A stretch of DNA of 64,000 nt from Hirudinaria manillensis. Taxonomy: Eukaryota; Annelida; Clitellata; Hirudinida; Hirudinidae. Made by a program: the position numbers and the translations under genes. The stretch spans positions 6,754,001 to 6,818,000 of the forward strand of contig CM067530.1 of NCBI GenBank assembly GCA_034509925.1, read 5' to 3'. How positions within the stretch are numbered: position 1 is the first letter of the stretch; every line of letters begins with the position of its first letter. The notes under the pieces are model-generated. The model was not told where the DNA came from and searched no databases. It saw only the letters and a program-made list of their open reading frames with translations. Shown here piece by piece: positions 6,051 through 45,765 of the stretch.

Positions 6051-6071
6051 GAAGATGTTCGAACCGTCGGT

Positions 6072-10457: not shown

Positions 10458-13400
10458 ATGCTTCTCCTGGGGGTTGCTCTCCTGTTTTTCGCCCAGGGCG
10501 TCAGTGCCCGAGTGATTTACACTCAGCCTGAGCAGATCCATCTGTCTCTTGGAGGTGAGTCCTTTAGATTTTATGTTTTGATGATTAGGAAATAAAATAT
10601 GAATTGATACGATGTAATACGATATAACATGTTACAGTTGATTATTTAGAATTACCGAAATGCAATCGTTATCAACAATAAAAGGAGTCGTTAACTGAAT
10701 TTTTTAATCAACAAATACTAGCTAACGAAGATGAGATGGTAGTGACCTGGGTGACCCTGGATAATGTAGAAGGTTCCTTCGTCGAGTACGGATGCGCTAA
10801 AAGTGCGAAGATGACCAAAGTCGCCAAGGGATACTCGACCAAGTTTATGGACGGAGGCGATGAAAAACGCACCATCATCATTCATCGCGCCACCATGACT
10901 GGACTTTTGACAGATCACGAATACAGTGAGTTCATTAGGCGGCTAGTTGCTGGCAACTAGTGCATTCGATGACTAATCACCTTTTCGTTCAGTCTACCAT
11001 GTCGGAAGTGACATCGGAGGATGGAGCAGCATCTATTCCTTCCGCAACTTGAAGGGTGGGCACAACTGGAGTCCAAAGATTGCTTTTGTTGGTGACATGG
11101 GCAACAAGTATGGGGCTTCCATACCGAGACTCCAGAAAGAAGCTCAGAATAAAAAGTACGATGCTATCTTCCATATTGGTCAGTATTTTCAAGCATTTTT
11201 TTTTCGTAATATTTGGAATGTTCGATTATTGTACGAGTTAATCATTTCATTTGTAATTCTATATTCATTGAATAATTTCATTATTTTCATGCAGGTGATT
11301 TTGCCTACGATATGCAAACTGTGAGTTAATTTTGCTCTTTTCGTTCGTTGAATATTAACCTAATAATCACATTAATCACATTTTCATATTTAATTAATCA
11401 GCAAAAGTAAATACTGTCACAAACATGTAATATTTAAAACAGTGGCAATGTTGTACTTAAAACATTATATATCTATTTAATATTTATATCGAATATGAAA
11501 AGAAGAAAATATATTTATTATAAATTATAAATCATATATTATATTATACGTTTCATTCTTATCTTAAAGGATAATGCCAGAGTGGGTGACGCGTTCATGA
11601 ATCAGATTCAGCCCATTGCTGCTTACGTTCCTTACATGACGGCTGTTGGTAACCATGAGATGGCCTAGTTAGTAATTAACAAACAGTAACTCTTTTATTT
11701 CATTTTAAAGTGATTCATTATTTACTAATCAATTACTCTTAAATCTTCCTTCAGCAACTTCTCGAATTACGTGAACAGGTTTACAATGCCAGGAGGTGAT
11801 GGTCATGGAATGTTTTACAGGTTGGCTTCTTAAACAAGTGCAACATAATGATTATTTTTCATTTACAACATTAAACGTAATTCGAAACATAAATTAATAA
11901 ATCATTTCAGTGTGAACATAGGACCTGTCCATTTCGTAATATTTTCTTCCGAGTTTTATTACTATACCCAGTACGGCACGCAACAAATCAAAAATCAATT
12001 TGATTGGCTTGAGAAGGATCTCAAGGTGAGAATATTTTTTATTATTATTGTTATTTAACTATAATGCCCTATCTTTATTATTTATTCGTGGTTACAACTG
12101 TTAATGGAATGTGGCCAGCTTAAGTTTCTCCATAAATAAGCCCTGTAGAGTTGTTCGTAATGTAAGCCATCCCCGGAAGTAAGCCTTAGTTAAGATCTGA
12201 GATCGGCTTTTACGGTAATAACATAGATTAGTTGCAGTAAATGAATTCTGTTGATTTTAAAATATTAATGTAATGCAGTAAGTAATAAGTGACTAAAACA
12301 GTATGCTTATGTTCCATATAATGGTATTATTACTTTTGTTATAATAACTATCACCTGTGATTTTCAAATTATCCTCATTAATTATTATTGTTGCCATTAC
12401 CGTCATAACATTGATATTATTTCCGCTCCTTTACATTTAATTCAATCGCCCATCAGGAAGCGAACAAGCCTGAGAACAGGGCCAAGCACCCTTGGATCGT
12501 TACCATGTGCCACAGACCTTTGTACTGCTCCAACACCGGTGACCCCGAACATTGTGGTAATAATACGAACGCGGTACGTAAATACGTTTATGAAACTTAA
12601 AACATCACAAACTTTGTTGCACGGATAAACAAATATAAATTAACTTTTAAAATATCCTCTTTGTTGATATCACAGATTCGTGTTGGAACCTACAAAAAAC
12701 ATGAATTCGCTATGGAAGAGCTGTTGTACAGACACGGAGTCGATATCCACATCCAGGCACACGAACATTCGTACGAACGAACATGGCCAGTTTACAACCT
12801 CACCGTGAGTTCTTATTTTGTTGAAAGATGATCTCTAACTCTTAACGAATCCCTTTGTTGATCCCAGGTGTGCAACGGAACATCTGGAAATCCATACAAG
12901 GATCCCAGGGCCCCCGTCCACATCCTCACAGGAGCAGGAGTAAGTGCTCTTAATTTCTAAAAATTACACATTAATTTATCAATTTTAATTATTCAATGCG
13001 ATTATTTTAAAATTGCTAAAATTTAAAAAAAATGAAAACGTAGTTAAAATTTCCTAAAGGGCAACAAAGAGGGAAGGGATGGATTTTTTAAGAACTTATC
13101 TTCGTGGAGCGCTTTCCGCTCGTCTGATCACGGTTACACCATCATGAGAAATGCCAATGAAACGCACATTGCTTTCGACCAAATGTCTGTTGAGAAGGTA
13201 CGATCGCGAATTGTTCTTAAGATTTCAATGCAATTTTATATAAAACTATAAAATCATTGATTTATTTTAAACTAACCGTCGAAATAACTAATTCATAATG
13301 TCGGGTTTGTTAATGATAATATAAAGTATAACAACACATGGCATCTTTATATCATTTTATATTAAATGTAAGACGTTATATAATAGTGGTGAAGTCTTAA

Positions 13401-13563
13401 TAATATATTTGTTTTTATCAATCAACAGAACGAATTCCAAGTCATCGACTCCATTGTTGTCGAGAAACATAAACATGGTGCTGGCTTGTACGACTGCCAC
13501 AAGCACAAAGGCAGCCACCTCGACGCAGATTTCTTCAAGAAAGTGTTCCGACATGCACTCTGA
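10458..13563 (+). CDS. ACP7: Purple acid phosphatase D
   Basis: Exons 10458-10554, 10722-10925, 10993-11178, 11295-11320, 11570-11667, 11755-11820, 11911-12025, 12457-12573, 12676-12804, 12868-12939, 13060-13197, 13429-13563 (TGA). Product about 460 aa with a signal peptide (MLLLGVALLFF...). All metal ligands are present: GDMG, GDFAYD, GNHE, CHRP and AHEH (Gly of GHxH replaced by Ala, as in C). Exon 9 contains the left breakpoint of the 12.8-40.4 kb tandem duplication, so its last three and a half exons recur at 29.47-30.24 kb. This is the only complete phosphatase of the array touched by that event, and it remains intact. Confidence 0.9.
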
Positions 13564-13639
13564 TGAAATGACAATATAATGATAAATTTGTTCAATACTC
13601 ATATTATTTTTTTTTTCAACTTAATAAAAATATATCTCA

Positions 13640-14960
13640 ATCTAATTCGAAATATATTGCTCATTTATGGCTCATCGCAATTAACAACTTCAATCTTATT
13701 GGTAATTATTATAATTATAAGTAATTATTTGCATGAAAATTTAAGAAAACAATAAGAACTGCAAGGAGACACAAGTTCAGATTCTTAACTTATACACACA
13801 AAAAATTACCAAATTGAAGCTGAAATTAAATTGCATTACTGAGTAACATTTTCGAAAGGATCGATTTTACGGAGGGAAAAAATTGGTGTGGAGTTTGGCA
13901 ATCGTGGGTAATAGTGGATTTGATATTAAAAGGGTTAATATCAAAACCAACTATAAAACAGGGCGTGACCTACAGAAATAATTAAATCTTTTAAGCCCTT
14001 AGGGATAGGCAGATAACCTAAATAAAACATTTGCAAACATAATCCCGTGATTAATAAACTAATTAAATAATATAATATAAGCTAAATGAGTTAGATTCCC
14101 CACTGCATAATGATATCAAAGTGACGGTTATACATTTAACATCTAATTTCATCCTTCACGATATACAATATAAAATGCAACATAAGTAAGCCACACAAGG
14201 CCTTTCACAAATTATCTTGTTAGAACTTGCCAAGTACTCATTACAAATTGGTAACCACTAGAAGATATAGGAGCGAACGAATGAAATTTGATTTCATACC
14301 TCAGGAAACTCTTTTGGAGAAATGCGTACAATTTAATCAACAGAAAACGGTCTAGAAAGAACTCTACTTGCGTTAGGCTGCGATTCTAGGTTCCAATATC
14401 CCCCATGTATTTATGATCCACTTTCTTGTAACAACTGATTACGAAACTAGTCAAATAATTATTAGCGACTCTTGCATTAAACAATCAAATTAACATAACC
14501 TCCCCAAAGCCATCTCGAAGCTTGTACAGACTTGAGGAAGATTCCATCGCAGTATTAATTAAACACTCTATTTATTTACATAGTTCTCCCAGGAACCCAA
14601 ACATTTAAATATGTTTATAAACAGTCAATAACCAACAGAAATAGGACCCTAAATAGGAAAATTCAAAAGCCAAACTTAAAAATATTCTCCTTTCCTCACA
14701 TTCCATTGAGTTATCTATCAATTCTAATAAATTAAATAATAATCCCATTAAATGCCTCTTCACGATGACTTCCACTCCATGTTCAATTTCATTGGTCATC
14801 AAATGAAAATCTGAAATTCTTAACTTGTTCAAGAGAACGTAAGATCAGCAATCAAGACGTCGATAATAATTTTTATCAGAAACGCACCCGCAAACTATAA
14901 ACAAACGTAAACTTAAGCGAGACGAGACGCAAGATCCTATTAATACGTAACAAATATTTT
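13640..14960. other. Intergenic, phosphatase D to TLE copy 1
   Basis: AT-rich spacer between the 3' ends of two convergent genes. I see no gene. A 75-codon minus-strand frame at 14605-14832 is shared with the right copy only because the whole segment is a recent duplicate, and it lies beyond the TLE poly(A) signal. Confidence 0.6.
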
Positions 14961-14965
14961 GTTAA

Positions 14966-14971
14966 TTTATT
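14966..14971 (-). terminator. Poly(A) signal of TLE copy 1
   Basis: AATAAA (minus strand) about 55 nt after the TAA stop at 15026-15028. The same signal follows copy 2 at 31584-31589. Confidence 0.6.
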
Positions 14972-15025
14972 GTAGGCTTAAGAGGACGATAGATGTTTTT
15001 GCAGTGGCAACAGTCATGACGTTAG

Positions 15026-19637
<4,612 letters not shown>

Positions 19638-21452
19638 GTCGTATGGAAAGTATTTTCCTATCTCCGAGCGAATTTATAACGAAAACTAAGAAAGCAAAAC
19701 TCGAAGGTACGACAACACAAAGACAGTGCAGCAATCCGACGAGAACCGCGAACTAAAAACCAAAGACTTGAAGCGAAATGTTTGGGCTATAAAAATGTAA
19801 TGCAATTTACAAAATACCATGTGAAATATTTTTAAAATAAATTAGCATAAAGCGCGCTGATATTCGGTTTAGATAAGATCGTTAGGCGCTCATTGCTTAC
19901 CATTGTTGGTGGGCGGAGTCCGAGTTTGTTGGCGTTTTGTTCCACTTTCGTTAATTATGCAATTATGCAGGAGCGGATGTCAATCATCCGTCGGTGACCA
20001 TTAAGTCCAGCCCCTGACGGTGACCGAACTTCTTCTCATTGTCGTTAGAGTTAATAACACGAAATCGTTTGTTGTGAGAGCCTCGAAAGAGCAGTCGAAG
20101 ACTTGTTACCTCAGGGTCAGGGGTGACATCTCCCGACGGTCGTAGATAATTCTAATTGGTTGGCTAATTTGATAGGCGTCGATTGGGTTGATGGTTGAAC
20201 CGGGTTGGATCTTAATGGGCTAATTGCATTTAATAATAATAAGTCAGTCAGTCGCTTAACCATTGAAACAGGTGAAAACATGAAATTGATGCAGTTGTTC
20301 GTTAATTGAAGACACGTGACGATTTCGAATCGTTTTCAACGCTCGATTTGTTTGCACTCGAGAAGCAATGGACGGACGGACGGACGAAACCATTGAAAGC
20401 GGATTAAAATATTTCATTCGATCCAAGAACTCGACAAGGCATTGTTTATTTGAGATTCTTATAACTTATGGCTTTCTCTGCCGGATTTCAGTAGATTTAA
20501 AGCAACTCAATGGTTAAAAAGAGTATGTCGTGGGCGGTTTGGGCGTAGAAGAGAAATAATGGCAAATGATGCCAATTTATAGATTAACAGTTCAATCTGT
20601 TTCATTTCAAATGCTACTCGGCGCGTTAGCAATTTTTGACATAACGTTGTCAGTGAAGCAGCAAATCAACGATTACATAACACGCAGTTAACGCACAGTT
20701 AATGTTTAGTTAATGAATAGTCAACGTATAGTTAAGTAACAACGAATCACGTAACGAAATCTGCCAAAGAATTGTCCACGGATAAACCCGAGTCTCCCTT
20801 TTAAAATGTTTTTCCACTTCGGATTAAATAAGAATTTAACATTTTATTAACAAATAATTTCAAACAACGCATAGAAACAACATGAAATTTTTTTTGCTCG
20901 AATTCTTGACATTCATCTTGTCACGTCATGATGATCTTTATTCATATTTGTTATCATCATCGTCGTCGTCATCATCTTCACCCAACATGTTGATACTTTC
21001 ATCCCGCGACACATGAGCAAACACTGCTTTTGTAGGGGAAATCTCAAATATTCATTTAGTTTTACGGATGTTTTAAATACTTTAACAACTTTTGTAGAAT
21101 TAATGAATTAATTCATAAAAATGCAATTATTGAATGTAATTAAAAAAAGTTCAATTATCGGGACAAACACGGACGTCCACGAAAGTTTTTGCAGCTGTGT
21201 TGGTGGGGGGGGATGGAGAAGTATTTTGAAATGCTTGGGATTTAAGGTCAAGATCTGTAGTGAGGTGTGAAAATAAATTAAGTGACTAACCAAGTAAATT
21301 ACGTTTTAGTAGCTTGAACACGTTAGTAATTACATAATTCTATATAATGTATTTTTAACAATTTGTTAATAACTGATTGATAACGTCATTACTACTATTG
21401 CGTCACAAAACCAGTAATTAATCCAATGTTAATAAATAAAACAAAACAACAG
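19638..21452. other. 5' flank of TLE copy 1
   Basis: Upstream region of TLE, duplicated almost unchanged at 36,261-38,211. It should contain the TLE promoter and any non-coding first exon, but I could not place a TATA box or first exon. A short (GACG)n run occurs near 20,372. No protein gene seen. Confidence 0.5.
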
Positions 21453-23535
21453 AGATGCGTTTGGGTAAAGGGGTGTTTATGCCTTCAGTAAAGGTTTTCA
21501 TGGACGACACCACCATCGTTCTAAACAGGCAGCAGATTGTTCAAAGAGCCCTTGACAAGCTCAATGATCTACTCCAATGGTGTCGCATGGCTCTGAAGCC
21601 CGCAAAATCCCGGAGTCTTTCTCTCACAAGAGGGAGAGTTCGCAGCGACGTGTGCTTCACCGCCGGAGGACAACGCATTCCGACGGTCTCAGAAGAGCCA
21701 GTAAAGAGCTTGGGAAGAGTTTTCGACGTGTCCCTCCGCGACAAAAACCAGGAGGCAGCCACTGTGAGTAGTATGACCGACGGTCTGAGAGCGATTGCAG
21801 AATCGCCGCTACAGGGCAGATTCAAAGTCTGGCTCCTGCAGTTCGTCCTGCTACCAAGACTGCTGTGGCCATTGACATTCTACGAAATAGGCCTGCAGTC
21901 GGTAGAAGAGATGGAAAGGAAAATAAATCGGTGTACAAGGAAATGGTTCGGGTTACCGCCTTCGCTATCGTCGATCGCCCTGTACAGCAGAAGCACACGG
22001 TTGAGGCTGCCCCTCAGATCCATCGTTGAAGAATATAAAATTAGCAAAATCAGAACTCAATGGTCGCTCAACAACTCCAGTGACAGCAGGGTCCGCGATG
22101 TCATGCCGCAACTCCGCTCAGGAAGGAAATTCAGAGCCCAGGAAGAAATTGAGGAATCCGAGGCAATCCTAGCCTTCGAGGAGAAAAGAGGACCCGTGCA
22201 GGTAGACCGCCATGGAGTCGGATGGAACCATTTTCCAAGATGGTCCACAGCGAATGTGCAGACAAAAGCCGCCATGATAATCCAAGAGAGAAGGCGAGAG
22301 ATGGAGACCGAAAGGATTGCGCTGGCAGTGCAGCAAAGCCAGCAAGGACAGTGGACAACCTGGGAAGACGTCATCCAAAGATCCATCACATGGAAAGACA
22401 TTTGGAAAAGTCTCCCCTCCGCTTGGCATTCCTCATAAGGTCGGTCTACGACGTGCTCCCTTCCGGGTCCAACTTACAGAAGTGGGGGATGGTTCAAGAC
22501 GCCAGCTGCGAGCTCTGCGGAGGTGAACAGTCACTCCGGCACGTGCTTTCATCATGCCCGTACGCCCTTGCTCACGGTCGCTACACTTGGCGACATAACC
22601 AAGTCCTGCAGGTCGTGGTCGAGGCGGCTAAGACGGCATGCTCCCAGGCAAATGCCCGAGAAATCGCGGCACCAAGAAGAATGTACTTCTTAAGAGAGGG
22701 CTCAACGCAGCACCGCAAAAGGAACATGGCCCAAATGAGGGACTTGCTATCCACAGCCAAAGACTGGACAGTTGCGGCAGACCTGCAGGGAGAAAGGCAC
22801 TACCACCAGGTGATACAAGAGAGCGGCAAGCGGCCTGATCTGGTGCTGGCGTCGGCAGCAACCGATTCCGTCATTATCGTAGAGCTGACGGTCCCATGGG
22901 AGGACCGAATTGATGTCAGCAATGCTCTGAAGAGCGACCGGTATGAAGAGCTGAAGATGGATTTAGAGGGGAAAGGTTATAGCGCCCGTGTGTTACCAAT
23001 AGAAGTCGGAGCGAGAGGGCTGGTAGGCAAGTCTACATACGCCTTTCTCAGGAAGATAGGCCTTTCAAACAGGCAAACCAAACAGTTCGTCCAGAAAATA
23101 GCCGAGTCCGCAGAATCGGCTTCTCACTGGATCTGGACAACGAAGGACCGAGGGTAAGCCTCAGACACGGCGAGGCTAGTCGTCCCTGTCCACTCCACCA
23201 AAACAGGGACTCCAGTGTAAGACCAGGAAAGAGACACCCCGGACGGCATTCACACCAAAGTGATATAAGAAGTGCCGTAACGGCTACTTTGACGGTTTTT
23301 CGGACGGCGGAGCCCTCGCGGAATTTTTTGTAAAATGGCTGTGCGAGTATTGTTTGTTTGTCGGAAGTCGTTGTCTGGTTATCGGAAGAAAGTATCTGGC
23401 AGGGACATCCGCTTGATCAACGGATGCGGCCCAGCCCCCGAGAGTGTCAGGATTCAGGGCCGAAACACTCGTAGAGGGGGCCATTCCTCTGAAGATCCCT
23501 GTCAGAACGCTCGCTCAAGAGTTTCTATCAATTTC
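21453..23535 (+). mobile_element. 5'-truncated non-LTR retrotransposon with restriction-like endonuclease (R2/NeSL/HERO-type)
   Basis: Insertion in the left duplication copy only. It joins host sequence at 'aaaacaacag' (21452). Its 3' non-coding region, GC-richer than the host, runs to about 23,53x, where it merges into a (TA)n-like microsatellite. It begins just upstream of the reverse-transcriptase catalytic box, so most of the RT is missing. The right copy carries about 155 bp of host sequence at this place (38,212-about 38,366) that the left copy lacks, so the insertion replaced target DNA. Confidence 0.8.
21455..23157 (+). pseudogene. RT C-terminus, CCHC finger and RLE endonuclease (frameshifted)
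   Basis: Two overlapping frames that make one protein. Frame 1 (21455-22438) opens with the RT box FMDDTTIV, then thumb-like sequence. Frame 2 continues from about 22,405 to 23157 with a CCHC zinc knuckle (CELCGGEQSLRHVLSSCP) and the endonuclease signature RPD...ELTVPWE plus a downstream Lys/Tyr block (KSDRYEEL). A single-nucleotide indel near 22,400-22,415 explains the switch. With the missing 5' part, the copy is dead. Domain order RT-CCHC-RLE is diagnostic of the site-specific early-branching LINE groups; which clade I cannot decide. Confidence 0.82.
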
Positions 23536-23539
23536 TATC

Positions 23540-24330
23540 AATATATATATGTATATGTATATATATGTGTATATATATGTGTATATATATTTAAATTACG
23601 TGGTTGTTTCTGTTCTCTATGTTTGGTATTCCCCATTTCCTTTATTTATCTCAGTTTTGAACAGCACTAAAAGAAAGTAAATCCAAAGCGGAATGATCGT
23701 AATTAGCCTGCATAGCTTCCATAATTAGTCGAATTTTGTGTGGTTAATTTGCCATCTTGAAACGTTGGTCCTTCATTAATTTCAATTATATTCAATAATA
23801 TTCAATTAATATTCTCTTCGTCCGACAATCACGATTGATTTTCAACTCAAAATGTTTCAATTACTAATTAATTTTTTAATTAATCGCAGGAAATAAATTG
23901 CAAAAGAAATATTTTGTTTTAACACGAAATGAAGGAGAATTTCAAGTCGCAAATATACCCGATGATGGTTTCATTGGAACCAATTTTCAAGTTTTCTTAG
24001 CTTTTTCAATAGGTTTTGCTTCGTTCTTGAATTTTTGATTCTATTTTTTTGCAGATATTTTCAAGGTTTTATTATTAAAACTTATTTTACAAAATTTTTA
24101 AATTAATTCAAGATTTAAACGAGTTTAAAAAATAAAACAAGTCTTCACTGAAATCATGTTTTTAATGACCTCCTAGCGATTAAAATGTAATTACAAGATA
24201 CACCTGGGGATTAAAAAGTAATTTTCAAAACATTTCTAGCGATAAACAAATTAACCGTTTTCTGAGTCATCTAACTTATCAGTTTCAATAATAGGATTTC
24301 TCTTCTACCTAAAATTGAAAACAAATTTAA
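23540..24330. other. Non-coding host DNA between retroelement and EP exon 3
   Basis: AT-rich, starting with an alternating TATATGTG microsatellite. Matches 38,370-39,130 in the right copy. No gene recognised. Confidence 0.5.
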
Positions 24331-24334
24331 TTAA

Positions 24335-25433
24335 TTAATTTAATTCATTAAAAAACAATTTTAATTTTAAACGCGAACAAGTCCAAGAAATTCCGACCCT
24401 GAAGGGCAATCTGTCCGATCGCAGCACGGAGCGAAATTGTTTGTTGGGACGGAGGACGTCCCTCTTCTCCTCTGGCGATGAATCGATGTTCCTCCGTTCT
24501 TGCGACCTCTTACCGTTACCTGAATTTCAAGTAAACGCTGGCGAATCGCAGTCTCGAGGCCGTGGCTTCCTTTCAAGTTCGGACGGTAATTAAAACTCTT
24601 TTCGACGATAAGGAAGCATTCGATGCTCGACAACGTCTTACATCACTTGCGCAGAAGAAAATAGATTGAAAAATGTTCACGATAAAGACTTCATTTGAAT
24701 ATGAAAGAACATGCCCAAGTCTTTTTCCCGCCCGCCCGGGTTTTTTTTTTGGCGGCAAAAATGCATGTAGGAATGAAAGGAATGAATTTAAATGAAACTA
24801 AGACGTTCAATTCACATTTTTGAAGCCACTCAAGTAAAAGAGAGACTTATAACTGCTTTGTCTTCAATACGCGCTTTCAAATGAAATTCTTGAGTAGTTG
24901 TAAGCAATAACAATTTCACTGAAGATGCAATGAAGAAGAAGATGATGACGATGGCATTGATGATGATGATGATGATGTTGGTGGTGGGGGTAATGGTGGC
25001 GATTGCAGGACGATTATGGAAGCGTGGAATTTTAAATTCCAATTCGTTCGTGCATTTCAGATGAATTGTTGACAAAATGAACCATTTCGATGATGTCCTA
25101 TTGGGACTACTCCCCAAATTGACTCTCGAAAGATATCTAATTGCCTCTTTTAGGATCAAACTCAGTTCCGCTTCTGAGATCCGTTAGTATGAGGTCATTG
25201 AAGAGGTAAGAGGTTCGATTTGAAGCTGATGGCGTGATTGACTGGAAGAGGGCCAGATGCTACTCCATACATCACTAACAACACCTGCAGCATCACTACA
25301 GGTGCGAAAGACTTTTATTCAAAACGAATTTTCTTCTATTGTGCGGAGAGGAAAAAAAAACACGCACCCGAGAAAAACATTTCAAACTCACCTCCGAGAC
25401 ACGCGTGTATGGCCCACTCCCCGGTGCATTTCG
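24335..25433 (-). pseudogene. Headless copy of the GGNG excitatory-peptide gene (exons 2-3 only)
   Basis: Exon 2 (25392-25433, 42 nt) and exon 3 (24335-24519) are, as far as I can read, identical in coding sequence to those at 40184-40225 and 39141-39325. They include the peptide core WAIHACLGGNGKR. The signal-peptide exon and promoter lie outside the duplicated segment, because the breakpoint falls in intron 1. In addition, a LINE sits 54 bp upstream of exon 2. Without a start codon or signal peptide it cannot make the secreted hormone unless a new first exon was recruited. Confidence 0.82.
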
Positions 25434-25595
25434 CTGTGGATCGTAAATTATTTAATTAATTAACAACAATAATAATTGTTTTTATTTTTTATTTATTTAT
25501 TTATTTCTCAACAAATTGAAGGGTCATCCAATGACCACTAACACAAATTTGAATAAGTACAGCAGATTGTGCGTAAATAAAGTGCAGAAGCAAGC

Positions 25596-28451
25596 TTAAA
25601 TTGATAGGTATTTGTTAAAGTCAGTAGTCGAGATGCAAGATTTAAATCGGGAAAAGGTTGAGGAGTTTATTATATCAAGGGGTAAGGAGTTCCAGGGCTT
25701 GATGATCCGGTTGGTGAAAAAGTTCTGCCTGTGACTGGTGAGACACTTCTCTTGGCGTAGACGAAGGGGATGACCACGGGTTCTGGAAGCTAGAAATGTA
25801 GGGAACTCTGGAATCTTGCATATAGTATGGCCGTGGATTATTTTGTAGCATAGGCATAAGTCACAGATGAGGCGACGATGTTCGAGTGTTTTGAGTCCGA
25901 GTTGTTTTAGTCTGTTAGGGTAGGGCAGAGCTCTGAGACCAGGAATCATTCTTGTGAAATATTTTTGCACCTTTTCTATTTTCGTTTTAAGCTGTTTGGT
26001 GTGTGGGTTCCATATTGGGGAGCAGTATTCGAGAATCGGCCGGACGAAGGAGCAGTATGCTTTGGTTAAAATGTTTTTGTTCCTGGTGCGAAAGCATTTG
26101 GAAATCAAACGTAACCTCACAAATGCTTTGTGGACAATATTGCTGATGTGTGCCTTGTAAGTAAGTTTGTCGTCGATGAGGACTCCGAGATCCCGGGTAG
26201 TTTCTAATAGAGGTACTGTTTGTGATGAAATTGTATAATGTCTGGGTGGAGTCCTGGTACGAGCTGACCTGACAGAGATTTGGATGCATTTCTCCGGAGC
26301 AAGCTGTAGTTGCCACCTGTTGCTCCATGACACCAACTTATTAATAGCAGACTGCAGGGAGGAACTTTGAGTGAGTGGTGATGCTGAGTACAGTTTGATA
26401 TCGTCAGCAAATAGTTTTGATTTGACGTAGTTATCGTTAAGCGTATCGGTAACATCATTAATGTATATTAGGAAAAGTGTAGGTCCAAGCACACTCCCCT
26501 GAGGCACGCCACTAATCACGTCCATTTCATTGGAAAGGTGGCCATTAATTTTTACTGCCTGGGTTCGGTTGGATAAGAAAGCTTCAAGCCATAAAAGTAG
26601 ATTGCCTGAGATGCCATAGGCCTGAAGTTTAGATAGTAGCTTTAGGTGAGACACCGAGTCGAAGGCTTTTCTAAAGTCAAAGTATATTATGTCTGTTCCC
26701 TGGTTCATTGATGCCGACCAATCATATGTACATTCAATCAGGTTGGAGCACGTAGATCTGGAATTTAAAAAGCCATGCTGTTCAGGTGATATGAGGTTGT
26801 TAGCTTGAAGGTAGTTTAAGATGTCTTTGTTGATCATCCGTTCCATTGCTCGACAGCAGGAGGATGTGAGCGATATTGGTCGGTAGTTACCAGGATCAGA
26901 AGTGGCCCCTTTTTTGTGTACGGGGGTTACATGGGCAGATCTCCAATCAAGGGGTAATTCGTGCATATTGAAGGAGAAGTTGAAGATATGGGAGAGTGGC
27001 AAACAGAGACCAGCAGCGCAGTTTCTGAGGAGAGTGTTAGTGATTCCATCCGGACCAGATGAGAGGGACGGTTTGAGCTTGCGGAGTGTCTGGTATGTGC
27101 GATCAGGAGTGAACATTAATTGATCAATTTTTTTGCTGGTGCGTGGAGACATAGTATGGCATATTCCATCATCGATTGTGAAAACACTGCAAAAGTATCT
27201 ATTGAAAATATTTGCTATTTTATCTGGATCTGATGTGTAGAGTCCATCTTGGGCTTTTAACTCTTGCACTGGGTTATGTGCTGAAAGTTTGCTGTTGATG
27301 AAGCGGTAAAACTGTCCTAAATTGCCGGTCAGTGCCAGCCTGATTTCCTGGATTTCGTGGTGTTCATCTATGACTTTCTTGAGTTTTTTGGAGAAAGCGT
27401 TGAAAATAATTTTGTCTTCGCTTCTTTTGCTTTGATGCCACTTGCGAAAGGCTTTAAGCTTTAGTTTTTGAGCCTTTAGAATGAAACTGGGGTAGGAAGG
27501 CTTGAGTGATTTTATAGTGGTGCCGAGTTTGACACGTTCGGGAGCGATGCTATTGATGCCGTTGCTAACAATATCTGTAAACACTCTCCAACAGTCATCA
27601 ACAGAGAAGCAGTATTGGAACAACTCATTCCAATTTATGTTGCAAAGGTAGCTGTCTAGATTTTCATAGGCTGATTTAGTTAAGTGTCTGTATCTCAGGT
27701 TATGAATTGTGACTGGTTGGGTTGGAAGATTCACTTTGAAGACAATGGTGTTATGGTCGCTCTGGGAGATTCGTGGCATTATCCTGATGTCTGATATGAA
27801 ACATGAATCGTTGGAGAAGAGCAGGTCTAAGATGTTAGATTGTCGCGTTGGTGACTGGACAAATTGGTGAAGTCCCATCTCGTCAAATAGGTTGATAAAT
27901 GTATTATAGATTTCATTGTTGGGGTGGGAGTGGTTTTGCCAGTTGACACACGGAAGGTTGAAATCTCCCATGACGCATACCAGTCCAGTACTCCTGCACA
28001 GATAGTCCAAACAGTGGACACTTCTTTTGGCATACTCAACGGAATTTGAATTGAACCCGGTTGGTCTGTAATAGGTAATAACTCGGCAAGTTGAACAACA
28101 CGTAAGAATATCAACACAAACGATTTCAATGGATTTGTACTCCAATGGTATGGGTATTTGTCTAACTTTAAGATTTTTCTTTACAAGTAGAGCAACACCT
28201 CCACCCCGAGAGCCCCTGTCGCAACGAAAAGCCTGGTATTCTTTTAACAGAAATAAGCCATCGGGTTCGCTGTCCAACCAAGTTTCAACCAAACCAAAAA
28301 CCTCTAGGTTGTGGCTTTTCAAAAACAAAGATAGTTCTTCTCTTTTGCTGATTAGGCTTCTGATATTTGTGGAGGCCCATGATTTTGGTTCATTTCCGAA
28401 AGGGCTGAGAGGTTGGTTGTGTCTCGGTTGCGGATGCCTTTGTTGAGCCAC
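25596..28451 (-). CDS. LINE ORF2: APE-type endonuclease and reverse transcriptase
   Basis: 951 aa without a stop. The N-terminal third is an exonuclease-endonuclease-phosphatase domain: Asn in TNIRSL near residue 29, catalytic Glu in GLVETWLD near 57, MGDFNLP, and the SDHN box near 245. The RT domain spans roughly residues 480-740: GPDGI, NYRPISLTS, FDFRKAFDSVSH, GVPQGSVLGP and the catalytic FADDIKLY. The C-terminal region resembles the conserved tail of CR1/jockey-type elements. It overlaps ORF1 by 62 nt in another frame, so translation probably needs re-initiation or termination-reinitiation. All motifs expected for activity are present. Not a host gene. Confidence 0.92.
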   Translation of the reverse strand: MAQQRHPQPRHNQPLSPFGNEPKSWASTNIRSLISKREELSLFLKSHNLEVFGLVETWLDSEPDGLFLLKEYQAFRCDRGSRGGGVALLVKKNLKVRQIPIPLEYKSIEIVCVDILTCCSTCRVITYYRPTGFNSNSVEYAKRSVHCLDYLCRSTGLVCVMGDFNLPCVNWQNHSHPNNEIYNTFINLFDEMGLHQFVQSPTRQSNILDLLFSNDSCFISDIRIMPRISQSDHNTIVFKVNLPTQPVTIHNLRYRHLTKSAYENLDSYLCNINWNELFQYCFSVDDCWRVFTDIVSNGINSIAPERVKLGTTIKSLKPSYPSFILKAQKLKLKAFRKWHQSKRSEDKIIFNAFSKKLKKVIDEHHEIQEIRLALTGNLGQFYRFINSKLSAHNPVQELKAQDGLYTSDPDKIANIFNRYFCSVFTIDDGICHTMSPRTSKKIDQLMFTPDRTYQTLRKLKPSLSSGPDGITNTLLRNCAAGLCLPLSHIFNFSFNMHELPLDWRSAHVTPVHKKGATSDPGNYRPISLTSSCCRAMERMINKDILNYLQANNLISPEQHGFLNSRSTCSNLIECTYDWSASMNQGTDIIYFDFRKAFDSVSHLKLLSKLQAYGISGNLLLWLEAFLSNRTQAVKINGHLSNEMDVISGVPQGSVLGPTLFLIYINDVTDTLNDNYVKSKLFADDIKLYSASPLTQSSSLQSAINKLVSWSNRWQLQLAPEKCIQISVRSARTRTPPRHYTISSQTVPLLETTRDLGVLIDDKLTYKAHISNIVHKAFVRLRLISKCFRTRNKNILTKAYCSFVRPILEYCSPIWNPHTKQLKTKIEKVQKYFTRMIPGLRALPYPNRLKQLGLKTLEHRRLICDLCLCYKIIHGHTICKIPEFPTFLASRTRGHPLRLRQEKCLTSHRQNFFTNRIIKPWNSLPLDIINSSTFSRFKSCISTTDFNKYLSI

Positions 28452-29178
28452 TCTGAGCGGTTTTCAGTCTTCTCTGGCATCTTTTCTGGTAGGCCGCTTC
28501 AGCTTCGCTGGGCGTCAAGTCATAGTTCATGAATACTTTTCTGACGGCAGCATCTTGGGAAATTCTGAGAATTCTAGAAGACGAGATCAAGTCTCTTACT
28601 GCCTCAGAGTTCGAGAGAGTGATACAGAGCTTAGTATTAGTAGGATCTTTCCCAAAACGACGTATATTTGTGATGGCAGGCTTCACAGTGAGATTCTGCT
28701 CGATGAAGTTATGTACAAGTTTGGTATCGTCGAGTGTTGGTTGAGCTGGTAAGCCGGAAACAATAACATTTGTTGAGCGCCTGCTCTTCTCAACTCTTTC
28801 TTTTTCGGCGTTCCACAAGACATTCTTGATCTCTGTCAAATCCACGCTGGGGGCACGAGTTACAAATGACTGTTCGAGAGTCTCCATCCTGGTCAGAAAC
28901 GTTTTAGTCATCTCATTCAGAGCTTCAGTCAACGTTTTGGTTATTTGCGACATCATGACCTGAATTGTTGTTGAAAATGCCTCCAACATCTTATTCATAT
29001 TGGTGTTCATTTGGCCAATTGCATTCGTCATGTGCTCCCCCAGCTGTTTTGTCAGGAGGTTCGAATTTTCATTCGCTTGTTTCATAACAGCGTTCAAAAT
29101 CATTTCGAGGCTATCCGGCGTTAGCGACCTCGCCATTTCAAACAAATTTACCGAATTAGTGTATTTCAGTGAGTACAA
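28390..29178 (-). CDS. LINE ORF1: coiled-coil RNA-binding protein
   Basis: 262 aa open frame 5' of ORF2. The first half is a heptad-like coiled coil (NLLTKQLGEHMTNAIGQMNT, then repeated hydrophobic spacing), expected to trimerise. The second half resembles the RRM plus C-terminal domain of ORF1p (NVIVSGLP, FIEQNL, IRRFGKD, ISQDAAVRKVFMNYDLTPSE). The C-terminus is rich in Ser/Thr/Gln. A second in-frame ATG (MARSLTP) at 29136 is an equally good start. It would bind element RNA and act as a chaperone. Confidence 0.85.
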   Translation of the reverse strand: MYSLKYTNSVNLFEMARSLTPDSLEMILNAVMKQANENSNLLTKQLGEHMTNAIGQMNTNMNKMLEAFSTTIQVMMSQITKTLTEALNEMTKTFLTRMETLEQSFVTRAPSVDLTEIKNVLWNAEKERVEKSRRSTNVIVSGLPAQPTLDDTKLVHNFIEQNLTVKPAITNIRRFGKDPTNTKLCITLSNSEAVRDLISSSRILRISQDAAVRKVFMNYDLTPSEAEAAYQKRCQRRLKTAQSGSTKASATETQPTSQPFRK

Positions 29179-29464
29179 TAAAATTAGACTGTTAGCTGGA
29201 GGTATATTCTATTTATAACGACGTTTTGTGCGAAAATCAACGGAGAAAGGTAAACCTGCCCGCACTCTATTAACGCTCACAACAATCCCTTAACGCTCAC
29301 AACAATCTAATGAAATATTAATTAGTATTAATATGATTATTATTCAATTATTTAATAAAATGAGAACAACAGTGGTATACATTGGTCACCTCTGGTTCCA
29401 CGAACAGTCTCGTCTGATCGAAGTCTCCATCTCCTTTCTATTCGTCCTTCGTCGCGCCCTAACC

Positions 29465-30416
29465 TGGCCAGTTTACAACCTCACCGTGAGTTCTTTTTTT
29501 GCTGAAAGATTATCTCTGGTTCTTAACGAATCCCTTTGTTGATCCCAGGTGTGCAATGGAACATCTGGAAATCCATACAAGGATCCCAGGGCCCCCGTCC
29601 ACATCCTCACAGGAGCAGGAGTAAGTGCTCTTAATTTCTAAAAATTACACATTAATTTATCAATTTTAATTATTCAATGCGATTATTTTAAAATTGCTAA
29701 AATTAAAAAAAAAATGAAAACGTAGTTAAAATTTCCTAAAGGGCAACAAAGAGGGAAGGGATGGATTTTTTAAGAACTTATCTTCGTGGAGCGCTTTCCG
29801 CTCGTCTGATCACGGTTATACCATCATGAGAAATGCCAATGAAACGCACATTGCTTTCGACCAAATGTCTGTTGAGAAGGTACGATCGCGAATTGTTCTT
29901 AATATTTCAATGCAATTTTATATAAAACTATAAAATCATTGATTTATTTTAAACTAACCGTCGAAATAACTAATTCATAATGTCGGGTTTGTTAATGATA
30001 ATATAAAGTATAACAACACATGGCATCTTTATATCATTTTATATTAAATGTAAGACGTTATATAATAGTGGTGAAGTCTTAATAATATATTTGTTTTTAT
30101 CAATCAACAGAACGAATTCCAAGTCATCGACTCCATTGTTGTCGAGAAACATAAACATGGTGCTGGCTTGTACGACTGCCACAAGCACAAAGGCAGCCAC
30201 CTCGACGCAGATTTCTTCAAGAAAGTGTTCCGACAATATAATGATAAATTTGTTCAATACTCATATTATTTTTTTTTCAACTTAATAAAAATATATCTCA
30301 ATCTAATTCGAAATATATTGCTCATTTATGGCTCATCGCAATTAACAACTTCAATCTTATTGGTAATTATTATAATTATAAGTAATTATTTGCATGAAAA
30401 TTTAAGAAAACAATAA
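29465..30416 (+). pseudogene. 5'-truncated duplicate of phosphatase D
   Basis: Created by the duplication junction. Only the end of exon 9 (from about 29465 to 29485), exon 10 (29549-29620), exon 11 (29742-29879) and exon 12 (from 30111) remain. All N-terminal metal motifs are lost, and GHxH falls just left of the breakpoint. In exon 12 a 20-bp deletion after the codons for VFR removes the stop seen in D and extends the frame into former 3' UTR up to 30416. By chance the junction leaves an open frame (29333-29542) that runs from EP-intron DNA into the exon 9 stub. No promoter is expected, so I call it a pseudogene. Confidence 0.88.
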
Positions 30417-30419
30417 GAA

Positions 30420-31580
30420 CTGCAAGGAGACACAAGTTCAGATTCTTAACTTATACACAAAAAAAATTACCAAATTGAAGCTGAAATTAAATTGCATTGC
30501 TAAGTAACATTTTCGAAAGGATCGATTTTACGGAGGGAAAAAATTGGTGTGGAGTTTGGCAATCGTGGGTAATAGTGGATTTGATATTAAAAGGGTTAAT
30601 ATATAAAACAGTGAATGATGGGCGTGACCTACAGAAATAATTAAATCTTTTAAGCCCTTAGGGATAGGCAGATAACCTAAATAAAACATTTGCAAACATA
30701 ATCCCGTGATTAATAAACTTATGAAATAATATAATATAAGCTAAATAAATTAGATTCCCCACTGCATATACAAATACAATATAAAATGCAACATAAGTAA
30801 GCCACACAAAGCCTTTCACAAATTATCTTGTTAGAACTTGCCAAGTACTCATTACAAATTGGTAACCACTAGAAGATATAGGAGCGAACGAATGAAATTT
30901 GATTTCATACCTCAGGAAACTCTTTTGGAGAAATGGGTACAATTTAATCAGCAGAAAACGGTCTAGAAAGAACTCTACTTGCGTTAGGCTGCGATTCCAG
31001 GTTCCAATATCCCCCATGTATTTATGATCCACTTTCTTGATAACAACTGATTACGAAACTAGTCAAATAATTATTGGCGACTCTTGCATTAAACAATCAA
31101 ATTAACATAACCTCCCCAAAGCCATCTCGAAGCTTGTACAGACTTGAGGAAGATTCTATCGCAGTATTAATTAAACACTCTATTTATTTACATAGTTCTC
31201 CCAGGAACCCAAACATTTAAATATGATTATAAACAGTCAATAACCAACAGAAATAGGACCCTAAATAGGAAAATTCAAAAGCCAAACTTAAAAATATTCT
31301 CCTTTCCTCACATTCCATCGAGTTATCTATCAATTCTAATAAGTTAAATAATAATCCCATTAAATGCCTCTTCACGATGACTTCCACTCCATGTTCAATT
31401 TCATTGGTCATCAAATGAAAATCTGAAATTCTTAACTTGTTCAAGAGAACGTAAGATCAGCAATCAAGACGTCGATAATAATTTTTATCAGAAACGCACC
31501 CGCAAACTATAAACAAACGTAAACGTAAACTGAAGCGAGACGAGACGCAAGATCCTATTAATACGTAACAAATATTTTGT
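30420..31580. other. Intergenic, truncated phosphatase to TLE copy 2
   Basis: Counterpart of 13,740-14,960. AT-rich, no gene seen. The TLE poly(A) signal is at its right edge (31584-31589, minus). Confidence 0.55.
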
Positions 31581-31643
31581 TAATTTATTGTAGGCTTAAG
31601 AGGACGATAGATGTTTTTGCAGTGGCAACAGTCATGACGTTAG

Positions 31644-36260
<4,617 letters not shown>

Positions 36261-38370
36261 GTCGTCTGGAAAGTATTTTCCTATCGCCGAGCGAATTTAT
36301 AACGAAAACTAAGAAAGCAAAACTCGAAGGTACGACAACACAAAGACAGTGCAGCAATCCGACGAGAACCGCGAACTAAAAACCGAAGACTTGAAGCGAA
36401 ATGTTTGGGCTATAAAAATGTAATGCAATTTACAAAATACCACGTGAAATATTTTTAAAATAAATTAGCATAAAGCGCGCTGATATTCGGTTTAGATAAG
36501 ATCGTTAGGCGCTCATTGCTTACCATTGTTGGTGGGCGGAGTCCGAGTTTGTTGGCGTTTTGTTCCACTTTCGTTAATTATGCAATTATGCAGGAGCGGA
36601 TGTCAATCATCCGTCGGTGACCATTAAGTCCAGCCCCTGACGGTGACCGAACTTCTTCTCATTGTTGTTGGAGTTAATAACACGAAATCGTTTGTTGTGA
36701 GAGTCTCGAAAGAGCAGTCGAAGACTTGTTACCTCAGGGTCAGGGGGTGACATCTCCCGACGGTCGTAGATAGTTCTAATTGGTTGGCTAATTTGATAGG
36801 CGTCGATTGGATTGATGGTCGAACAGGGTTGGATCTTAATGGGCTAATTGCATTTAATAATAATAAGTCAGTCAGTCGCTTAACCATTGAAACAGGTGAA
36901 AACATGAAATTGATGCAGTTGTTCGTTAATTGAAGACACGTGACGATTTCGAATCGTTTTCAACGCTCGATTTGTTTGCACTCGAGAAGCAATGGACGGA
37001 CGGACGGACGGACGAAACCATTGAAAGCGGATTAAAATATTTCATTCGATCCAAGAACTCGACAAGGCATTGTTTATTTGAGATGTTTATTCTTATAACT
37101 TATGGCTTTCTCTGTCGGATTTTAGTAGATTTAAAGCAACTCAATGGTTAAAACCTGTGTTAGTCGTGGGCGGATTGGGCGTAGAAGAGAAATAATGGTA
37201 AATGATGCCAATTTATAGATTAACAGTTCAATCTGTTTCATTTCAAATACTACTCGGCGCGTTAGCAATTTTTGACATAACGTTGTCAGTGAAGCAGCAA
37301 ATCAACGATTACATAACACGCAGTTAACGCACAGTTAATGTTTAGTCAACGTATAGTTAAGTAACAACGAATTACGGAACGAAATCTGCCAAAGAATTGT
37401 CCACGGATAAACCCGTCTCCCTTTTAAAATGTTTTTCCACTTCGGATTAAATAAGAATTTAACATTTTATTAACAAATAATTTCAAACAACGCATAGAAA
37501 TATGACTGCCTTAAAAATATGAACATCTTAAAATTATGTCGTAGGACCATTTTGTTTTGTTTTTACATTTCAGTCAACATGAAATTTTTCTGCTCGAATT
37601 CTTGACCTTCATCTTGTCACGTCATGATCTTTATTCATATTTGTTATCATCATCATCGTCGTCATCATCACCATAACCGTCGTCGTCGTCATCATCACCA
37701 TAACCGTCGTCGTCGTTATCGTCATCATCATTACCCAACGTGTTGATACTTTCATCCCGCGACACATGAGCAAACACTGCTTTTGTAGGGGAAATCTCAA
37801 ATATTCATTTAGTTTTGTGGATGTTTTAAACGCTTTAACAACTTTTGTAGAATTAATGAATTAATTCATAAAAATGCAATTATTGAATGTAATAAAAAAA
37901 GTTCAATTATCGGGACAAACACGGACGTCCGCGAAAGTTTTTGCAGCTGTGTTGGTGGGGGGGGGGGGAAGGAAAAGTATTTTGAAATGCTTGGGATTTA
38001 AGGTCAAGATCTGTAGTGAGGTGTGAAAATAAATTAAGTGACTAACCAAGTAAATTACGTTTTAGTAGCTTGAACACGTTAGTAATTACATAATTCTATA
38101 TATAATGTATTTTTAACAATTTGTTAATAACTGATTGATAACGTCATTACTAGTATTGCGTCACAAAAACCAGTAATTAATCCAATGTTAATAAATAAAA
38201 CAAAACAACAGTCTTGTTTATAAAAAAAAACACTTTCGTGCAAAAGTTTTCCAAAGAACCAATTGATTGATCCTGAATATCCCTGCCAAACCCGTCCAAA
38301 TTCTATCGACCCAACTCGTTTTGTACACAAAACCTGAACGTTTGAGAAATTGTTTAAAAATACAATATAT
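36261..38370. other. 5' flank of TLE copy 2, ancestral state
   Basis: Counterpart of 19,638-21,452, plus about 155 bp (38,212-38,366) missing from copy 1 where the retroelement sits. Contains an imperfect GAT/GAC trinucleotide tract at 37,645-37,735, a G-run near 37,958 and a (TA)n near 38,370. No gene recognised. Confidence 0.5.
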
Positions 38371-39140
38371 ACGTATATATATATATATATATATTTAAAT
38401 GTTATTTATGTTCTCTATGTTTGGTATTCCCCATTTCCTTTATTTATCTTAGTTTTGAACTGAACAAAAAGAAAGTAAATCCAGAGCGGAATGATCGTAA
38501 TTAGCCTGGAAATCCCGCATAGCTTCCATAATTAGTCGAATTTTGTGTAGTTAATTTGCCATCTTGAAACGTTGGTCCTTCATTAATTTCAATTAATATT
38601 CAATAATATTCAATTAATATTCTCTTCGTCCGACAATCACGATTGATTTTCAACTCAAAATGTTTCAATTACTAATTAATTTTTTAATTAATCGCAGGAA
38701 ATAAATTGCAAAAGAAATGTTTTGTTTTAACACGAAATGAAGGAGAATTTCAAATCGCAAATACACCCGATGATGGTTTCATTGGAACCAATTTCAAGTT
38801 TTCTTAGCTTTTTCAATAGGTTTTGCTTCGTTCTTGAATTTTTGATTCTAGTTTTTTGCAGATATTTTCAAGGTTTTATTATTAAAACTTAATTTACAAA
38901 TTTTTTAAATTAATTCAAGATTTAAACGAGTTTAAAAATAAAACAAGTCTTCACTGAAATCATGCCTTTAATGACCTCCTAGCGATTAAAATGTAATTAC
39001 AAGATACACCTGGCGATTAAAAAGTAATTTTCAAAACATTTCTAGCGATAAACAAATTAACCGTTTTCTGAGTCATCTAACTTATCAGTTTCAATAATAG
39101 GATTTCTCTTCTACCTAAAATTGAAAACAAATTTAATTAA

Positions 39141-41676
39141 TTAATTTAATTCATTAAAAAACAATTTTAATTTTAAACGCGAACAAGTCCAAGAAATTCC
39201 GACCCTGAAGGGCAATCTGTCCGATCGCAGCACGGAGCGAAATTGTTTGTTGGGACGGAGGACGTCCCTCTTCTCCTCTGGCGATGAATCGATGTTCCTC
39301 CGTTCTTGCGACCTCTTACCGTTACCTGAATTTCAAGTAAACGCTGGCGAATCGCAGTCTCGAGGCCGCGGCTTCCTTTCAAGTTCGGACGGTAATTAAA
39401 ACTCTTTTCGACGATAAGGAAGCATTCGATGCTCGACAACGTCTTACATCACTTGCGCAGAAGAAAATAGATTGAAAAATGTTCACGATAAAGACTTCAT
39501 TTGAATATGAAAGAACATGCCCAAGTCTTTTTCCCGCCCGCCCGGTTTTTTTTTTGCGGCAAAAATGCATGTAGGAATGAAAGGAATGAATTTAAATGAA
39601 ACTAAGACGTTCAATTCACATTTTTGAAGCCACTCAAGTAAAAGAGAGACTTATAACTGCTTTGTCTTCAATACGCGCTTTCAAATGAAATTCTTGAGTA
39701 GTTGTAAGCAATAACAATTTCACTGAAGATGCAATGAAGACGCTGGCATTGATGATGATGATGGTGGTGGTGGTGGTGGTGGTAATGGTGGCGATTGCAG
39801 GACGATTATGGAAGCGTGGAATTTTAAATTCCAATTCGTTCGTGCATTTCAGATGAATTGTTGACGAAATGAACCATTTCGATGATGTCCTATTGGGACT
39901 ACTCCCCAAATTGACTCTCGAAAGATATCTAATTGCCTCTTTTAGGATCAAACTCAGTTCCGCTTCTGAGATCCGTTAGTATGAGGTCAGTGAAGAGGTA
40001 AGAGATTCGATTTGCAGCTGATGGCGTGATTGACAGGAAGAGGGCCAGATGCTACCCCATACATCACTAACAACACCTGCAGCATCACTACAGGTGCGAA
40101 AGACTTTTATTCAAAACGAATTTTCTTCTATTGTGCGGAGAGGAAAAAAAAACACGCGCCCGAGAAAAACATTTCAAACTCACCTCCGAGACACGCGTGT
40201 ATGGCCCACTCCCCGGTGCATTTCGCTGTGGATCGTAAATTATTTAATTAATTAACAACAATAATAATTGTTTTTATTCATTAATGAAATATTAATTAGT
40301 ATTAATATGATTATTATTCAATTATTTAATAAAATGAGAACAACAGTGGTATACATTGGTCACCTCTGGTTCCACGAACAGTCTCGTCTGATCGAAGTCT
40401 CCATCTCCTTTCTATTCGTCCTTCGTCGGGCCCTAACCTGTACCTCCTCTCAATACCTGTTCAATTGGTTGGGTACCGTTGATAATATTCTTTATACGAA
40501 CGGTTCCGACCAAAACAAGCGTGAACCGTTGCTATGGCGACTATAAATTTAAATATCACGTGATCGTCAACAATTTGTCTTTCATTGAACTTCGTACTGA
40601 AGTCCTTTCCATTATTTTACAGCTGTAAAAAAAATACCCTCAAAAGTACCCCAAAAAGTACCCAAAGTACTTGGAATCATCCAAAAGATGGATTAAAATA
40701 TTTTCTTGCAGCCAATTTCATGATTTATTGAATATATTTTCATAATCAAATTTCACGACAAATGATTTTCTTTCATCTAATTATGTTAATTTATTTCGTG
40801 AATAAATTAACTATATGTAAATTTTTTATTAATTAAGAATAAATAAATTGATTTTACAAAAATAATTTGGAACAGTATTTGATAATTTGACGTCCACGAC
40901 TTGATTACTTCAAGACACCAGTAATTGTAACGAAATAATTGCTTTTCGATGTAACGAGACGCAGAGAAACGTGTTTAATTAGCCACAAAGAAGCATTTAT
41001 TACCATTTATTATAAATACAAAGAATATCGTTATTTTGAAATATAATAGGTATATTAATAGTTAAATTAATTATATTAATGGTTAAATTAAGAAAATTAT
41101 TATTTATTATAATATAATTTATATGTATTTAAATATAATTTCAATGTCAGATTTAGAAATTGATACTTTTTCCAAAAGTGATAGGATATCATTGAGACCT
41201 GATAAGTTCTTAAGATTGTCTATTTTTGTATATTTTCTTATTCACTGAAGTTCAATGAAAGTCTTCAAATAATTATTTAATATTAATATAAATTAATATA
41301 AATTAATATAAATTATTACAATAAATTATTACAATATATTATAATCGCTTTAAAATTTTAATCGAAACAAGAGAGAATCATTCGGGAATTTAAAAGTTGG
41401 TAATAAATTAATAACAAGTTAACCTTTAAGTTTATAATAAATTCATAATTAAATTAATTTTAAGTTAATTCTAAGTTGATATTATCTTCATAGAAATACC
41501 AAGTTGGTGGTATTGTTGCTTATAAAAAGTTAACATTACGTTAATAAATAAATACGATAAATAATAAATATAAGGTTAAATAATAAATAATTAAAACATC
41601 TCCAGCTTTGAGAACTGGACTAACCTCTCGTGACGTGCACAAGGAAGAGGAAGAAGACGAAGAGGATGAACTTCAT
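39141..41676 (-). CDS. GGNG-type excitatory peptide (EP) preprohormone
   Basis: Secreted neuropeptide precursor, about 92 aa in three exons: 41625-41676 (signal peptide, starts MKFILFVFFLFLVHVTR), 40184-40225 (42 nt), 39141-39325 (TAA). Phases are 1 and 1 with clean gt/ag sites. The spliced product has the hydrophobic leader, then at once KCTGEWAIHACLGGNGKR. GKR is an amidation plus dibasic cleavage site, so the mature peptide is a C-terminally amidated 15-mer with one Cys-x8-Cys disulphide loop. K-C-x-G-x-W-A-I-H-x-C-x-G-G-N is the hallmark of annelid/mollusc GGNG myoexcitatory peptides, which I recall as related to arthropod CCHamides and acting through a bombesin-receptor-like GPCR. The rest is a spacer with further basic sites. 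A TATA box lies 55 nt upstream. Intron 1 holds the duplication breakpoint. Confidence 0.88.
40441..41600. other. Intron 1 of the EP gene, unduplicated part
   Basis: AT-rich sequence to the right of the duplication breakpoint. A 92-codon plus-strand frame (40268-40546) crosses the breakpoint. Its left half also occurs at 29.33-29.46 kb. I see no family resemblance in it. Confidence 0.5.
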
Positions 41677-41730
41677 GGCTCAAAAGATAAAGACAGCAAG
41701 TTGCTCAACAGGATGTTCTAAGTGACGTCC

Positions 41731-41737
41731 TTTTATA
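41731..41737 (-). promoter_or_regulatory. TATA box of the EP gene
   Basis: Minus strand reads CTATAAAAGG, 55 nt upstream of the ATG. A TGACGT core (CRE-like) lies right beside it at 41723-41728 and another at about 41879. CRE-type sites are common in peptide-hormone promoters; function here is inference. Confidence 0.65.
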
Positions 41738-41894
41738 GCTTCTCCACGGCCCCCGTGGACTGAAGATGACAATTTTCTTCAACCGACGATGGTTTATAAG
41801 GGTTTTGTGAGGTCCGTGAAATTCCACTCGACATGTCAAGTGGTCTGACGATGAGAGCATCATTCGTGACTCCATCGATGACGTCGACATGACT

Positions 41895-42080
41895 TGCTGT
41901 CATCTGCACTCCCATCCGTTCACCTGCATTCCCATACATTAATCTGCACTCCCATCCATCCATCCATCCATCCATCTGCATTCCCATTCATTCATTTGCA
42001 CTCCCATCCATCCATCTGCATTCCCATACATTAATATGCACTCCCATCTGTTCACCTGCATTCCCATACATTCGTCTAAA
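41895..42080. repeat. Degenerate minisatellite upstream of the EP promoter
   Basis: Repeated blocks of the form CTGCAnTCCCATnCATTnAT, with an internal (CATC)n run near 41,955-41,975, occupy about 180 bp, some 150-340 bp upstream of the TATA box. Confidence 0.75.
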
Positions 42081-42089
42081 ACACAAACC

Positions 42090-45721: not shown

Positions 45722-45765
<44 letters not shown>

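Follow-up and report, generated by a model that had tools for sequence, protein, structure and literature searches.

The minus strand at positions 39141-41676 of a 64,000-nt stretch of the Hirudinaria manillensis genome (hereafter the window) raises the question of whether three very short exons together encode an annelid GGNG/excitatory peptide (EP) precursor, and how a second copy of two of these exons nearby is to be read. The original prediction had proposed an in-frame join of the three exons, and its coordinates, lengths, and frames were all borne out by translation and by GT-AG splice sites. The exon structure was observed directly: joined in frame, the exons (52 + 42 + 185 nt) give a coding sequence of 279 nt including the stop and a precursor of 92 aa. 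A tiny multi-exon precursor that is invisible to motif and ORF searches has now been placed, with the following features.

41625..41676, minus strand: coding exon 1, with the start codon, the predicted signal peptide MKFILFVFFLFLVHVTR and base 1 of an Ala codon; GT donor
40184..40225, minus strand: coding exon 2, with (A)KCTGEWAIHACLG and base 1 of the codon for peptide Gly14; AG acceptor, GTGAGT donor
39141..39325, minus strand: coding exon 3, with the remaining GN-GKR, the C-terminal propeptide and the stop; TTCAG acceptor, open to TAA
41732..41737, minus strand: putative TATA box TATAAA, from a motif scan, 61 nt 5' of the start codon
38875..38880, minus strand: putative polyadenylation signal AATAAA, from a motif scan, 261 nt 3' of the stop

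The spliced precursor translates as MKFILFVFFLFLVHVTRAKCTGEWAIHACLGGNGKRSQERRNIDSSPEEKRDVLRPNKQFRSVLRSDRLPFRVGISWTCSRLKLKLFFNELN, in which the signal peptide is followed by a single KCTGEWAIHACLGGN-GKR. Both introns of the peptide gene are GT-AG introns of phase 1, with the donors GTTAGT (exon 1) and GTGAGT (exon 2) and the acceptors CACAG and TTCAG. Intron 1 measures 1399 nt and falls where the signal peptide ends, while intron 2 splits the codon for Gly14 of the 15-residue peptide after its first base. The donor of exon 1 reached a middling score of 3.7 and that of exon 2 a score of 7.6. The predicted signal peptide has a hydrophobic core of 3.48 (Kyte-Doolittle, 9 residues) and, by rule of thumb, a TRA|K cleavage site. 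A further TATAAA, likewise from the motif scan and of presumed function, begins at 41798, 122 nt 5' of the start codon.

The peptide gene is real and an unremarkable representative of a neuropeptide family already known, and a partial duplication of recent date lies next to it. We are highly confident that it is an annelid GGNG/EP precursor, for which processing and action are predicted below, and that the neighbouring copy of exons 2 and 3 is a recent duplicate, most likely silent. Passages of PMC6617912 describe the trochozoan EP precursor as a signal peptide directly followed, as is the norm of the family, by one two-cysteine peptide ending in GGN-GKR; they characterize the peptides by two cysteines enclosing an aromatic residue and often also His, and by GG or GA before a usually amidated end. 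The Hirudinaria precursor has this anatomy, and its peptide, KC-TGEWAIHA-C-L-GG-N-GKR, carries all of these features, the amide being a prediction. The GGNG signature of annelid and molluscan EPs that had been claimed for it is further supported by residue identity to two printed peptides, scallop GGNamide and earthworm GGNG1, with two apparently misprinted earthworm rows excluded. In the scallop Patinopecten, GGNamide (GKCRGRWSIHACLGGNamide, as printed in a passage of PMC5996578) has the same residue at 12 of 15 positions, or at 13 of 16 with the following Gly; the two peptides have the ACLGGN end in common and differ in the ring by T/R, E/R, and A/S. Identity to earthworm GGNG1, as given in part of PMC11922444, amounts to 11/15 residues, or 12/16 when the last Gly is counted. 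The C-x8-C ring with W and IH and the GGN(G) tail are also common to the leech and earthworm GGNG/EPs, namely LEP of Hirudo nipponia and Whitmania pigra and EEP of Eisenia. A Pfam search of the precursor returned 0 families, and the PDB search with the peptide returned no match.

Two observations would suit a chance arrangement with no gene present: the exons are very short, and a DNA pattern for GGNG matched the genome 8 times, compared with 4 times for its reversed control. However, the in-frame joins, the order of signal peptide and KR site as in the EP family, and the high identity to known EP members all argue against chance, and so does the ring sequence. Written as an 18-base degenerate DNA pattern, WAIHAC occurred twice in the 148.4 Mb genome (148,429,096 bases, 23 contigs searched), both times in the window, and the reversed-pattern control gave 0 matches. 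Likewise, C-x3-W-x4-C-x-G, scanned for in all six frames of the window, matched at 2 places, in exon 2 and in the duplicate of exon 2. When the genome was searched with the whole precursor at E up to 10, all 5 matches corresponded to exons 1, 2, and 3 and to the duplicates of exons 2 and 3. The peptide gene was not among the 8 matches of the GGNG pattern because the intron cuts the motif; by itself this DNA motif is weak and uninformative, whereas the WAIHAC ring sequence is informative. The probability that no gene is present is therefore regarded as negligible.

Exon 1 is the best local candidate for a first exon, yet the other two exons are on firmer ground. It was the single candidate (41676-41625) in a first-exon scan of the minus strand at 40226-46000, for which we set the thresholds ourselves (ATG, 14-40 residues, phase-1 donor of at least 2, hydrophobic core of at least 2.2). 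Under stricter settings (core of at least 2.9, donor of at least 4), 2 candidates appeared in the whole window on both strands, exon 1 being excluded by its donor of 3.7; such first exons are therefore rare, though chance ones occur. The precursor of Hirudo nipponia, as reported in a passage of PMC6617912, has spacer residues between signal peptide and EP that are absent from the three-exon model of Hirudinaria. An additional small exon in intron 1 is therefore conceivable, or a different first exon, either of which would add a spacer before the EP; intron 1 with its 1399 nt is roomy enough for a cassette exon, and the middling donor of exon 1 points in the same direction. Such a different 5' structure is nevertheless considered unlikely: the direct junction of exons 1 and 2 is in frame and yields a plausible signal-peptidase site, the scan of 40226-46000 returned no other signal-peptide exon above its thresholds, and direct adjacency is what the passages on the EP family would lead one to expect.

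With the three-exon model retained, we infer the expression, processing, receptor pairing, and function of the EP gene as follows. Exon 1 would provide the signal peptide, cleaved after Ala18, and exons 2 and 3 would jointly provide one peptide, in which a disulphide is expected between the two cysteines. Cleavage of the propeptide at KR would expose the Gly, which PAM may convert into an amide to yield KCTGEWAIHACLGGN-NH2. The earthworm peptides are printed with a free GGNG-OH end in the part of PMC11922444 that lists them, whereas the Hirudinaria peptide carries GKR; amidation of the leech peptide is therefore predicted, not certain. Released from neurons, the peptide would excite muscle through a bombesin-type G-protein-coupled receptor. 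The leech crop-gizzard is excited by EP according to a passage of PMC6617912.

The genome was searched for matching components and for markers of its phylum. A PAM exon was observed, with PAM accounting for 13 of its 14 PDB matches and dopamine beta-hydroxylase for the remaining one; another match in the genome to the Pfam family of this exon is dopamine beta-hydroxylase-like. The assignment to Lophotrochozoa that had been drawn from the peptide is supported by the erythrocruorin linker family (PF16915), which is not known outside annelids and which had 8 matches in the genome, 7 of them above the cut-off. The control of 0 matches in 14 genomes says little for the linker family because the animal-wide 7tm_1 family was likewise found in 0 of the 14. 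For a destabilase exon in the genome, the best of 4 PDB matches was 8bbu, a structure from Hirudo medicinalis.

At least two bombesin-type receptor-like genes were observed in the genome and are candidates for the EP receptor. The single-exon receptor gene at C5:5328332-5329429 had bombesin-family receptors as the best 8 of 638 PDB matches (NMBR, E = 1.2e-50), and its seventh helix carries NPxALY, a feature of bombesin and endothelin receptors. The motif scan of the seventh helix took in 30 loci of 160 matches to 7tm_1. In a whole-genome search, bombesin receptors were the best 8 of 265 PDB matches for an exon at C3:12321456-12321749, and an exon on C13 was ambiguous between the bombesin and opioid receptor types. 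Elevenin receptors are close relatives of the bombesin-type receptor group, as stated in a passage of PMC12002301, and the C5 and C3 genes are therefore treated as candidates. Since the PAM exon and the bombesin-type receptor-like genes lie in the same genome as the peptide gene, the ligand-receptor pairing is directly testable.

Exons 2 and 3 have a duplicate in the window that was overlooked in the original prediction and that is part of a tandem segmental duplication. The duplication was observed directly in the assembly by self-comparison, and its parts are the following.

12780..29466, no strand: copy A of the tandem segmental duplication, made up of 12780-25486 and 29308-29466 and containing insertions absent from copy B
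29461..40440, no strand: copy B of the tandem segmental duplication, with its right edge within intron 1 of the peptide gene
25392..25433, minus strand: exon 2 duplicate in copy A (exon 2A), identical to exon 2
24335..24519, minus strand: exon 3 duplicate in copy A (exon 3A), identical to exon 3
25487..29307, minus strand: LINE-type retroelement in the former intron 1 of copy A, missing from copy B

Copies A and B differed by 145 substitutions in 10,552 aligned bases (1.37%), as counted from 6 of 7 BLAST pieces with one piece of less than 150 bases left out. The LINE has open frames of 955 aa, with endonuclease and reverse transcriptase, and of 272 aa (25596-29208, minus strand), with RVT_1 and endonuclease domains in frame 25596-28463, and as it is confined to copy A, it was most simply inserted after the duplication. 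Substitutions at this level and insertions in a single copy are within the range that heterozygosity could produce, so that the duplication might be an assembly error in which two haplotypes were placed end to end. On the other hand, the window contains no N, the junction near 29461-29466 is continuous and its joined ends have TG in common, and nothing in the window duplicates the right flank (40441-64000), the left flank being uninformative as it sits in an older tandem repeat. An assembly error is accordingly judged improbable.

The duplicated unit also bears groucho/TLE exons, the C-terminus included (TLE1 1gxr, E = 2.8e-41), and thus doubles at least the C-terminal exons of groucho/TLE. 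The two C-terminal (WD40) regions, 14967-15710 and 31585-32328 on the minus strand, are nearly identical, with 6 differences in 744 bases, and both have long open frames. Groucho-like matches also occurred elsewhere in the genome, on C7 and C10. In 21453-23560, a further stretch unmatched in copy B, a zinc-binding domain associated with reverse transcriptases reached the cut-off.

Because the right edge of the duplication falls in intron 1, copy A is devoid of exon 1 and its upstream region. The first-exon scan found no signal-peptide exon for copy A in 25434-29460 or 29461-39140, and the second copy is therefore probably silent. Under this model, an edge within intron 1 would have placed the copy of exons 2 and 3 beyond the copy-B groucho exons, leaving behind exon 1 and the upstream region. 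Expression of exons 2A and 3A would call for long-range splicing from exon 1 across groucho, so that the same peptide would arise from two exon sets. They do lie downstream of exon 1 on the same strand, with splice sites identical to those of exons 2B and 3B, and they showed 0 differences in 227 bases between the copies, for which P = 0.043 at the overall rate (intron 2: 13/858). Still, the splice would have to jump about 16 kb including the groucho exons, the local identity is weakly significant, and the non-coding DNA flanking exons 2A and 3A is also nearly unchanged between the copies; together with the result of the first-exon scan, this makes expression of the second set very unlikely. 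Selection preserving exons 2A and 3A was also considered, but a P of about 0.04 gives it too little support to be claimed. Through the partial duplication, one copy of a neuropeptide gene appears to lack the exon for secretion.

The deeper relations of the gene were compared by peptide and by intron phase. Bombesin-type peptides have the C-terminal sequence WAxGHxM, whereas the Hirudinaria peptide has WAIHACLGGN. Passages of PMC6617912 describe bombesin-type peptides without a cysteine ring, unlike the Hirudinaria EP, and present trochozoan EP as orthologous to arthropod CCHamide, which likewise has two cysteines and a peptide directly after the signal peptide. CCHamide ends in an amidated C-terminal histidine, whereas the Hirudinaria peptide ends in GGN-GKR. 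Bombesin-type receptors belong to the same group as EP receptors, and according to the same source, in the part concerned, only receptors truly indicate the orthology of EP/CCHamide with deuterostome bombesin-type peptides.

The precursor genes of chordate and echinoderm bombesin-type peptides (GRP, NMB, and echinoderm BN) have a common phase-1 intron within the peptide, as described in a passage of PMC12002301. EP intron 2 likewise interrupts the peptide coding sequence in phase 1, a comparison made by phase, and the Hirudinaria gene has an extra intron at the signal-peptide boundary compared with bombesin-type precursors. The intron inside the peptide raises the question of whether EP/CCHamide and bombesin precursors have a gene structure in common. 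If EP intron 2, which splits the codon of the penultimate residue (Gly14 of 15), descended from the same ancestral intron as the one within the peptide of bombesin-type genes, gene structure would link the EP/CCHamide precursors of protostomes with the bombesin precursors of deuterostomes, beyond their receptors. The phase by itself says little for this link because other neuropeptide genes have phase-1 introns as well, such as the beetle periviscerokinin genes, whose several coding exons are all joined by introns of phase 1 (in the relevant passage of PMC6585902), and the ancestral-intron reading is held to be unlikely. A limited literature search turned up no work that sets the intron positions of EP or CCHamide genes beside those of bombesin genes; PMC6617912 uses neither the word intron nor the word exon, and the CCHamide passages of PMC4237046 and PMC6585902 give no CCHamide intron phases.

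Scans of the window for tRNA genes and for Rfam families (gathering threshold) were empty. The older tandem repeat to the left of the duplication spans 5508-14109 on the plus strand, in pieces 80-95% identical, and by eye resembles purple acid phosphatase exons in its motifs. Pfam returned 0 families for 10977-11324 and PDB no match for 10682-10957. At 61612-62727 on the minus strand, one frame had a weak match to the cyclin C-terminal domain (23 bits, cut-off 22) and a second frame, which was assigned to no family, is RS-rich by eye; both frames together resemble cyclin L.
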